NCBI GenBank assembly: GCA_024743215.1
Contig: JANSWZ010000001.1
Location: forward strand, 1-64,000
DNA from: Alphaproteobacteria bacterium
Lineage (GTDB): Bacteria > Pseudomonadota > Alphaproteobacteria > Rhizobiales > GCA-2746425
Length of the DNA: 64,000 nt
Direction of reading: 5' to 3'
Shown here: positions 51,639-53,666 of the stretch, in pieces
Layout: every line of letters starts with the position of its first letter
Numbering within the stretch: position 1 is the first letter of the stretch
Translations under genes and position numbers: made by a program
The notes under the pieces: model-generated
Databases searched by the model: none
The model's input: only the letters and a program-made list of their open reading frames with translations
Told to the model about the DNA's origin: nothing

Positions 51639-52460
51639 ATGAAACGGAATTTCTTCCAGCCGGTGCTCATTTTATCGATCGTCGTTACAGGTGTCCTGCC
51701 AGCGCAAGCCGTATCGCTTGTTTCTCATCGTGCTGTTTACGATATTTCTCTGGTCGAGGCGGAAGACGCCACGTCAATTTCAGATGTGTCTGGGCGCATG
51801 GTGTTTGAACTGACCGGGTCTGAATGCGATGGTTATGCGGTGCAATATCGCTTCGTCACACGACTTGGTGAAAAAGATGGAACATCGGCTGTCACGGATT
51901 TCCGCGTAACGACATTTGAAGAGGCCGATGGAAGCTCTTTCAGCTTCGCATCCTCCAATTTTGTGAACAACAACAAGATCGATGAGGTGAGGGGCGTTGC
52001 CAATCGAAAGGATGATGAGATTACGGTTGGTCTGACAGTCCCGGAAGAGGAAGACATGACATTCCCCGGAAGCGCAGTCTTTCCCAGTCAGCAGTTTGAA
52101 AAACTGATCAATGCGGCTATCGACGGTCAGAAAATTGTCCAGCATCTTGTTTTTGATGGTTCAGAGAAAGGCAAGGAGGTGTTTGACGCGACCAGTCTTA
52201 TTGGCGCGCGCGGCAGTTTGTCAGAGTCCGACAAGGATAGTCTTTTGTCGATTGAGGAACTTGCCAAATCACCGTTCTGGCCTGTTACAATCAGCTATTT
52301 TGATCTGGGTGCAACCGGTGAATTACTGCCGAATTATGTGACCAGTTTTGATATGCATGACAATGGTATCAGCCGGAATATCACCATGGATTATGGTGAC
52401 ATGGTCTTGAAAGCTGACTTGACCCAGCTTGATGTTCTGGATGCAAGTTCGTGTAACTAG
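51639..52460 (+). CDS. eipB: Envelope integrity protein EipB-like (DUF1849)
   Basis: 273 residues with a signal peptide ending near AQA (residue 24). A periplasmic spiral beta-sheet protein (DUF1849); EipB of Brucella maintains cell-envelope integrity. The conserved pair Cys63 (GSECDGYAV) and Cys272 (next to the C-terminus, SSCN) matches the disulfide described for EipB. The TAG stop codon is part of the CTAG duplication flanking the mobile element that follows, so the reading frame ends exactly at the insertion point. Confidence 0.88.
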   Translation: MKRNFFQPVLILSIVVTGVLPAQAVSLVSHRAVYDISLVEAEDATSISDVSGRMVFELTGSECDGYAVQYRFVTRLGEKDGTSAVTDFRVTTFEEADGSSFSFASSNFVNNNKIDEVRGVANRKDDEITVGLTVPEEEDMTFPGSAVFPSQQFEKLINAAIDGQKIVQHLVFDGSEKGKEVFDATSLIGARGSLSESDKDSLLSIEELAKSPFWPVTISYFDLGATGELLPNYVTSFDMHDNGISRNITMDYGDMVLKADLTQLDVLDASSCN

Positions 52461-52490
52461 GGTCTGAACCCAACTGGGAGCTTAAATTGG

Positions 52491-52587
52491 CGTTGTATAG
52501 ACAGCCCAAATGCTATGAACAGATTGTAGGTAAGGCTGGTTGCCTTTTCAAAATCTGTGAAGCGGCAGTTGGGCTGTCTATATAACG
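52491..52587. repeat. First internal palindrome of the mobile element
   Basis: Outer arms of 19 bases (52491-52509 and 52569-52587) match at 18 of 19 positions (core TATAGACAGCCCAA). Nested inside are ACAGATT/AATCTGT arms and a small AAGGC-TGGTT-GCCTT hairpin. It forms one of the two side arms of the predicted three-way junction. Confidence 0.8.
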
Positions 52588-52598
52588 TCCCCTCGGGA

Positions 52599-52692
52599 TG
52601 AGTGTGGTTTTGGGCAGGATGTCGGCGCAAAGGCTTGAAAACCAGACGGTTTCCTGCGTCTTTGCTTCTAACCCTGACCAAAACCACACTCA
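52599..52692. repeat. Second internal palindrome of the mobile element
   Basis: Outer arms of 21 bases (52599-52619 and 52672-52692) match at 19 of 21 positions (core TGAGTGTGGTTTTGG). Nested inside are GCAAAG/CTTTGC and GAAAACC-AGAC-GGTTTCC. It forms the second side arm. Confidence 0.8.
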
Positions 52693-52727
52693 CCAATTCA
52701 ACCTCCCAGTTGAGTCCAGACCCTAGA

Positions 52728-53666
52728 TCACGGATTGATCGGCATTCTCTGCCGGATATCTGGCGTTTGTTGATTTAGTGAGATCAATCTGGCTTGCAGA
52801 TTGAGGATGTATTTCTCGATCAGCGGGCTGGATGAGAAATTCTGTCGCCGCACGATCCCGACATTTCGCTCAAATTCAAAATCGATTGGGTAAAAGCGCG
52901 CCAGATTTTCGAACTGCGTCTCATAGTGGCTGCCCTCCGGCATGACGCTGAGCAGACGGGTTTGCCGCAAGCTCTGATAGACAATTTCGTTTGAATTGGT
53001 GACGATTTTGAAGGTTGGTTTTGGTTTTTTGCGATGTGTGAAATAGGCCTCAAGAGCGGTTCGACCAGCCTCTTCAATTTCCGGGACTATCCAGTCGTAA
53101 AGCAGCAGATCGTCAATGGAAACCGATTTGCCCGCAAATGGATGATCGGCACTGCACAGGCCGACATATTTGTCTGAAAAAATGCTTTCGACCAGACAGG
53201 AAGGGTCATGCATCACCCGGTTGACCATTCCGACATAAAGATCAATCCGATTGCTGAGAAGTGCCTGATGCAGACGATCTGCGTGATCGGTCATCACCGA
53301 GTAATCGATGCCGGGATGCAAGGCATGAAGGTCTAATATGGCATCATTGACACTTCGGATGAAGGATCTGCCGACGCCAATGCGCACCAGACCAAGTGAG
53401 CCTTGTGCCATGATAGACATCTCATAATTTGAGCGCTCAAAATCCAGCAGAATGCGTCTGGCATGTTGCTCCAGGGCGATGGCAAATGTTGTGGGTTCGA
53501 CGCCACGCGGCAAGCGTTTAAAGAGCAGAACGCCGTAGTGCTGCTCCAGAGAGTGAATGCTTTTACTGATGGCAGGTTGGCTGATATTTGCGCTCTGGGA
53601 TGCCTGGAGAAAGCTGCCATGATCGAACACAGTCAGGAAATGCTTGAGTTGCCGCAAATGTATCAC
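52728..53666 (-). CDS. LysR-family transcriptional regulator, divergent from the sugar importer operon
   Basis: 312 residues from GTG 53666, which has AGGGAG 8 bases upstream (revcomp reading); the frame extends to 53714 without a better start. DNA-binding helix-turn-helix within residues about 5-60 (HLRQLKHFLTVFDHGSFLQA, SQPAISKSIHSLEQHYG), effector domain from about residue 90. It is transcribed divergently from the ABC importer genes and is their likely regulator. Its stop codon lies one base beyond the element's CTAG flank. Confidence 0.9.
   Translation of the reverse strand: MIHLRQLKHFLTVFDHGSFLQASQSANISQPAISKSIHSLEQHYGVLLFKRLPRGVEPTTFAIALEQHARRILLDFERSNYEMSIMAQGSLGLVRIGVGRSFIRSVNDAILDLHALHPGIDYSVMTDHADRLHQALLSNRIDLYVGMVNRVMHDPSCLVESIFSDKYVGLCSADHPFAGKSVSIDDLLLYDWIVPEIEEAGRTALEAYFTHRKKPKPTFKIVTNSNEIVYQSLRQTRLLSVMPEGSHYETQFENLARFYPIDFEFERNVGIVRRQNFSSSPLIEKYILNLQARLISLNQQTPDIRQRMPINP

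Follow-up and report, generated by a model that had tools for sequence, protein, structure and literature searches.

A 264-bp non-coding element inserted at a TA target between eipB and lysR belongs to a superfamily of near-constant length and fold with exchanged ends

The common view of MITEs is that of eroded insertion sequences whose interiors carry no meaning. The nearest published systems to the element described here are the CIR elements, QMITE2 and the CGTC REPs (PMC2229807, PMC10969869, PMC2873474, PMC2680597, PMC5896051, PMC3733652). CIR elements of Caulobacter and Brucella are described as ~110 bp long, with two arms and a linker, TA termini and a GANTC in the terminal loop (PMC2229807, PMC10969869). 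QMITE2 of Coxiella is reported as a transcribed hairpin MITE of 150-190 bp with 7-11-nt direct repeats and a GTAG REP inside; its relatives of 83-100 nt in Bradyrhizobium and other alphaproteobacteria are described as partial copies only, with a conserved stem and a divergent tip (PMC5896051). CGTC REPs are given as units of 20-40 bp with 8-9-bp stems that open with A-T pairs, and with CCA tails. According to the same account no dedicated transposase was found for them and they are perhaps moved by many; Anabaena GTAG-15 dimers are noted there to lie in a TATAGGA..TCCTATA palindrome (PMC3733652). NEMIS/Correia, ERIC and RUP are summarised as TA-ended hairpin MITEs of ~100-200 bp in narrower host groups (PMC2229807). 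In the open-licence literature, the field covered by the search (subscription papers fell mostly outside it), no description of a 268-nt length-locked family was found.

The window is a 64,000-nt stretch of an alphaproteobacterial contig. Inverted repeats, an empty site and the length class place the whole element, with its flanking TA copies, at 52458-52725 on the plus strand (268 nt, TA..TA); the element proper is the 264 bp between the two TA copies. The outer 33 nt pair together in a closing stem (left arm 52458-52490, right arm 52693-52725) that encloses hairpin A (52491-52587, 97 nt, with internal loops), a small linker hairpin TCCCCTCGGGA assigned from sequence and fold (52588-52598), and hairpin B (52599-52692), which of all modules is found most widely; all these parts are given on the plus strand, and both large hairpins are delimited by arms, fold and covariation. 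Hairpin B carries CTTGA at 52634-52638 (a stem-closing C and an unpaired TTGA) and CCTGCG at 52653-52658 (an unpaired CCTGC and a closing G), the 5' and 3' sides of an internal loop that is conserved in the consensus of 40 non-redundant hairpins. The inverted arms match at 88% over 34 nt (52457-52490/52693-52726), 91% over 23 nt (52491-52513/52565-52587) and 95% over 20 nt (52599-52618/52673-52692), in agreement with the inverted-repeat ends and two internal palindromes of the original prediction. That prediction had also proposed folding of the sequence. Computed as single-stranded DNA on 286 nt (the element and short flanks), the fold has -85.8 kcal/mol versus -34.6 +/- 3.7 for 200 shuffles (z -13.9), none of which is as low. 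No ORF of at least 80 aa, the range covered by the ORF listing, lies within the element, as expected from the proposed lack of coding content. The only GANTC of the window copy lies at 52712-52716 in the right end of the closing stem, and GACTC/GAGTC are present in the ends of other element copies. GANTC is the CcrM methylation motif, and Dam methylation times IS10 transposition to replication; by analogy, GANTC methylation could couple the timing of element transposition to replication.

The element lies between a gene for an EipB_like protein (PF08904) and a convergent gene for a LysR regulator. The TAG at 52458-52460 ends eipB, and lysR, read on the minus strand, has its stop at 52728-52730; with the insert left out of account, a single base separates the two stops, as had been claimed. 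In G002, a genome of the same genus, the site is empty: the joined window flanks align over 335 columns (90%) with no gap. G001 and G003 also have no element at this site, and G004 shows a short partial match only. The insertion was thus precise and probably recent. Conservation of the sequence in eipB/lysR 3' regions of distant species had been named beforehand as evidence against mobility; the related elements that were read sit at other sites. In one of these, from Phyllobacterium zundukense (L118, 1499-1766), a gene for an ATP-grasp protein has its annotated start (1751) inside the right end of the element.

CTAG is present at both flanks of the window copy (52457-52460 and 52723-52726), and to this extent the predicted CTAG target stands. 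TA flanks the element on both sides in 59 of the 77 unique insertion sites, with CTAG (26), CTAA (12), TTAA (11), TTAG (8) and other (2) as inferred targets. The 4-bp flanks of the two ends differ in 33 of the 59 sites; the duplication is therefore TA in a YTAR site, and CTAG as a 4-bp target duplication is rejected. The outer C and G of CTAG are a site preference outside the duplication, whose two copies in the window, both inside CTAG and without assigned strand, are at 52458-52459, overlapping the eipB stop, and at 52724-52725.

BLAST with the window element gave three full-length places of its subfamily in its own genome, the window included, so further copies exist as predicted; copies are also found in G002, G003 and G004. 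Some match was obtained in 11 of 101 genomes (own genome included), and in the six outside the genus it was mostly confined to the hairpin B core. A covariance model gave nine matches in the own genome, of which five (L190-L194, 267-269 nt) have other ends and form a second subfamily that is absent from the BLAST matches of the window copy in that genome. The second subfamily, with ends TAGGGTGCGGACCC, coexists with the window subfamily both there (contigs C4, C9, C12 and C3) and in G002 (L183-L189). Palindromes of ~30-50 bp that hold little beyond the two ends of the element were seen in the own genome (L011, L048, L051) and in G002 (L080-L084, L087); these are possibly deletion products without both hairpins, or excision scars. 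A ~240-bp relative was seen in G000, G002 and G001 (L068, L085, L086), and since its flanks are similar in the three species it is apparently an old, vertically inherited insertion.

A candidate mover is present in G002 as two identical 838-nt copies of an insertion sequence (TA..TA), inserted as C|TA..TA|G. Its two ORFs match PF13340, PF01609 and the NCBIfam IS5 model, the second ORF slightly under the cut-off of the NCBIfam model. The ends TAGGGTGTGAACCCAATT/TAGGGTGTGGACTCAATT of this insertion sequence agree with the element ends TAGGGTCTGAACCCAACT/TAGGGTCTGGACTCAACT, the outer 18 nt of the closing stem, at 16/18 each, the end match that marks an IS5-family-dependent MITE, and the differences between left and right end (AACCC vs GACTC) are common to the two. 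Other IS5-type elements of the genus with readable ends have a similar end style and are mostly at C|TA|G. In G002 and the own genome the second subfamily has the ends TAGGGTGCGGACCCTTTA, which resemble those of another G002 insertion sequence (TAGGGTCCGGACTCTTTA, 16/18), and the element of G042 matches one end of a G042 insertion sequence (17/18). The full IS5-type element that had been predicted, with nearly matching ends, is therefore found in G002; the own assembly has none with the ends of the window element, its two hits having TAGGTCATGTTGACAAAC-like ends. On contig C3 of that assembly one IS5-type copy (L105) has a TAG within the first ORF. In 14 further genomes, insertion-sequence ends were readable at 10 of 30 loci, with a clear match to the genome's own element only in G042; the remaining genomes gave no PF13340 match, unreadable ends or non-matching ends. 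An IS630 origin, a first guess from CTAG and TA, was set aside: in a search aimed at IS5-type elements, the matching insertion sequence that was read is of the IS5 family.

The window element is short and non-coding, with terminal inverted repeats, several copies, a precise empty site and a TA duplication, the features of a MITE, and the mobile-element reading of the original prediction is right in the main. The end matches point to an IS5-family transposase that would move the element in trans. A different mover, an IS200/IS605-like tyrosine transposase with the hairpins as its single-stranded DNA substrate in the manner of REPIN/RAYT systems, would suit the conserved hairpin loops and the inverted hairpin pair of some subfamilies: 6 of 43 elements have a hairpin A that is recognisable as hairpin B inverted (rc(A) vs B, z > 3), and 1 of 43 has one that resembles it in direct orientation. 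However, the ends are IS5-like with a TA duplication instead, and PF01797 (REP-type tyrosine transposase) was found in 5 of 20 genomes with the element versus 4 of 20 without, and not in the own genome. This distribution shows no association with a RAYT, and a REPIN/RAYT-like reading as a whole is very improbable.

The wider spread of the element was followed with models R1 (hairpin B, from 22 sequences, threshold E <= 1e-4) and R2 (hairpin A, from 24 sequences). In the order, R1 found hairpin B in 79 of 397 genomes; in the class the count was 15 of 385, with the own genome included, and in the phylum 43 of 398, of which 27 lie outside the class. Up to ten candidates were scored per genome, and a genome therefore holds at least the number of copies counted. 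R2, which played no part in finding the loci, gave a match where hairpin A should lie (8-27 nt upstream of hairpin B) in 50 of 77 loci, and in 41 of 68 once its building sequences were left out (55 of 66 hairpin-A rows were used in this place test, at E <= 1e-5 and with one row omitted). Core matches in other families of the order proved to belong to complete elements, equal in size but with ends of other kinds. Sixteen loci of the phylum search were read, and outside the class they include a complete 266-nt element (L285) and a 158-nt element with hairpin B alone (L283); some hairpin-B matches outside the class may be unrelated hairpins, the reading having covered these 16 loci. Hairpin B alone is also found at two loci of one genome of the class (G613; L157 and L171). 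The first of these directly adjoins a tRNA gene and is a single hairpin with TAGAGC-type ends, which suggest a further insertion-sequence source. Hairpin-B-like hairpins in shorter elements with GTAACTACTCAG/CTGAGCAGTTAC-like ends were seen outside the class in one family of mostly small genomes (L286, L288, L289, L290, L291).

A plasmid search with the G044 element gave eight records in Phyllobacterium, Nitratireductor, Sphingobium, Sphingopyxis and Bartonella, the matches in the last three genera being partial; elements of whole size lie on plasmids of named Phyllobacterium, Nitratireductor, Sphingobium and Sphingopyxis. The window element had no match among plasmids, nor the L022 element among plasmids and phages, and hairpin B was found in none of the 43 viral contig sequences with exact pattern matches (model, E <= 0.001).

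Element ends were called at 84 distinct places. At 77 of these the length is 265-275 nt, and 43 measure exactly 268; seven places were left out by eye as misread or atypical (236, 241, 260, 278, 286, 303 and 319 nt), of which at least L146 and L148 look real. The 84 places come from 76 hairpin-B hits. The ends were unreadable in 11 of these hits, some of which lie on the edge of a contig and some of which have a hairpin A that is reduced or absent; the other 65 were called in a 200-340 nt span; a further 22 rows placed by hand gave 87 rows, with three places doubled. Element length and fold are thus near-constant across the superfamily while the ends vary between subfamilies.

In 43 non-redundant elements, drawn from 80 rows and free of the three doubled places, Watson-Crick cells of the closing stem amount to 90% at positions 1-18, 76% at positions 19-33 and 17% at positions 34-38, with positions 1-20 partly paired by construction (the ends were chosen by their first 20 nt) and positions 21-33 unused in that choice. 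Pairing stops at position 34, and the inner arms have different sequences in 40 of the 43 elements. Standard pairs fill 90.1% of the cells in hairpin B and 88.6% in hairpin A, and 19 of 23 and 20 of 22 pairs, respectively, have changed on both sides; the compensating arm differences foreseen for other copies are therefore present. The covariation score is 0.518 for hairpin B (0.162 shuffled, <=0.108 slid) and 0.780 for hairpin A (0.249 shuffled, <=0.198 slid), in both cases above all 500 shuffles and all slid versions, with counts and shuffles that ignore the kinship of the sequences. For hairpin A, two of five measures lie within the shuffles (double-change pairs, 52/500; pair types, 74/500). 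Conservation within hairpin B is strongest for letters that are mostly in loops (consensus cGTc, TTGA, CCtgC and tCCT). By eye only, a kissing contact was seen between the hairpin tips of A and B; it is seemingly not kept in other genera.

The arms would also seem to co-evolve in an ordinary MITE with an idle fold, if one arm were copied from the other by template switching at replication. Such copying is consistent with the long, near-perfect arms, with the near equality of GT and AC mismatches in hairpin B and the closing stem (see below), and with the eight closest comparisons within the window subfamily (identity 0.91-0.96), which show 8 two-sided versus 48 one-sided changes. Against it, the 12 copies of the second subfamily show 546 one-sided versus 0 two-sided changes, summed over comparisons; the TTGA/CCTGC loop stays unpaired and conserved as the adjoining stems change; and the length is held within the narrow range given above. 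An ordinary MITE of this kind is quite unlikely. One-sided versus two-sided changes number 561 to 379 over all comparisons of the window subfamily, 286 to 205 for G044/G083 and 50 to 25 in the G042 group, in pairwise comparisons that overlap and are not independent. Close copies thus differ mostly on one side and older ones often on both, as if resident copies were free to decay and spreading lineages kept the fold. This pattern suggests selection acting during propagation, and argues against fast copying from arm to arm as well as against a function for the host at every site.

An RNA fold tolerates G-U better than A-C. The ratio of GT to AC mismatches is 26:25 in hairpin B (40 sequences) and 58:62 in the closing stem (43 elements), versus 14:0 in 11 tRNAs of the element loci; in hairpin A it is 31:9 (23 sequences), in the RNA-like direction. 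For the hairpin counts, filtering at 80% identity left 40 sequences out of 89 for hairpin B and 23 out of 66 for hairpin A, and the test is weak because one-sided decay yields GT and AC equally. Since hairpin B and the closing stem, unlike tRNAs, have no G-U excess, a folded DNA is favoured over a transcript, with moderate confidence. At gathering scores, Rfam gave only two tRNAs in the window region and 32 loci; sub-threshold matches to miRNA hairpins occur in the window region. Four terminator-like sites were found in 601 bases versus 0.5 expected, two of them inside the element. Of 64 sites classified with a crude ORF caller, 12 lie between convergent, 32 between tandem and 20 between divergent genes. 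A bidirectional terminator was rejected, as the terminator-like sites are all on the plus strand and the gene context is not biased to convergent genes.

These data bear on a structured RNA that would benefit the host, acting in trans or in cis (mRNA 3' end, processing). The strong covariation and the wobble ratio of hairpin A speak for it, and QMITE2 as a transcribed hairpin MITE is a precedent (PMC5896051). Hairpin B and the closing stem, the lack of a convergent bias, the mostly uncompensated changes between close copies and the Rfam result speak against it, and a structured RNA is unlikely. The more specific proposal of a folded RNA 3' end for eipB and lysR is not supported, given the site contexts and the unbiased wobble counts outside hairpin A.

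The best explanation as a whole, with a probability of about 0.6, is a 264-bp element that depends on IS5-family elements and is mobilised in trans, its fold being kept through propagation and the folded molecule likely being DNA. IS5-family transposases of the two-ORF, TA-duplicating kind would recognise the outer ends and move the element, one such event having probably placed it at the CTAG between eipB and lysR. The window element would represent one subfamily in a wide superfamily whose members take their ends from various insertion sequences and yet keep nearly the same length and fold. Only well-folded copies would beget new copies, so that resident copies decay and propagating lineages do not. 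The folded molecule would more likely be DNA than a transcript, its hairpins forming on a single strand or by cruciform extrusion. A further-reaching reading is offered tentatively: the superfamily may be a phylum-wide selfish DNA defined by its fold, a length-locked folded DNA with conserved internal loops that must form, on single strands or as cruciforms, for the element to spread, and a promiscuous satellite that swaps in the ends of active TA-targeting insertion sequences. Beyond the original prediction lies a superfamily whose interior keeps its shape and length in many genera while its ends are exchanged, and it raises the question at which step of its life cycle a DNA transposon requires a folded strand.

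With MITEs derived from the IS5 family, of the IS427-like group, the element shares its small size, the lack of a long ORF, terminal inverted repeats, TA ends and ends like those of two-ORF IS5-family elements. It differs in an interior without sign of a deleted insertion sequence and in a conserved folded module across subfamilies with different ends. CIR elements, set apart here by their description, are likewise alphaproteobacterial intergenic repeats with two linker-joined arms and TA termini, but they are less than half as long, have no 5'-3' closing stem and carry in the terminal loop the GANTC that the window copy has in the closing stem. NEMIS/Correia, ERIC and RUP resemble it as TA-ended hairpin MITEs; they are shorter, in narrower hosts, and a phylum-wide length-locked fold is not part of their description (PMC2229807). 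QMITE2 is a hairpin MITE with small alphaproteobacterial relatives, which may share hairpin B; as described, it differs in its size, its direct repeats and its GTAG REP. CGTC REPs and REP dimers are alphaproteobacterial hairpins, inverted dimers and TA-ended palindromes without a dedicated transposase. The hairpin B consensus departs from the published description of CGTC REPs (PMC3733652): most hairpin-B sequences have cGTc before a stem opened by G-C and no CCA tail, and the window copy has CGGC at this place. The hairpin-B module occurs in elements whose ends are of several kinds, and for that reason may bear on how CGTC REPs, for which that description reports no transposase of their own, are mobilised (PMC3733652).
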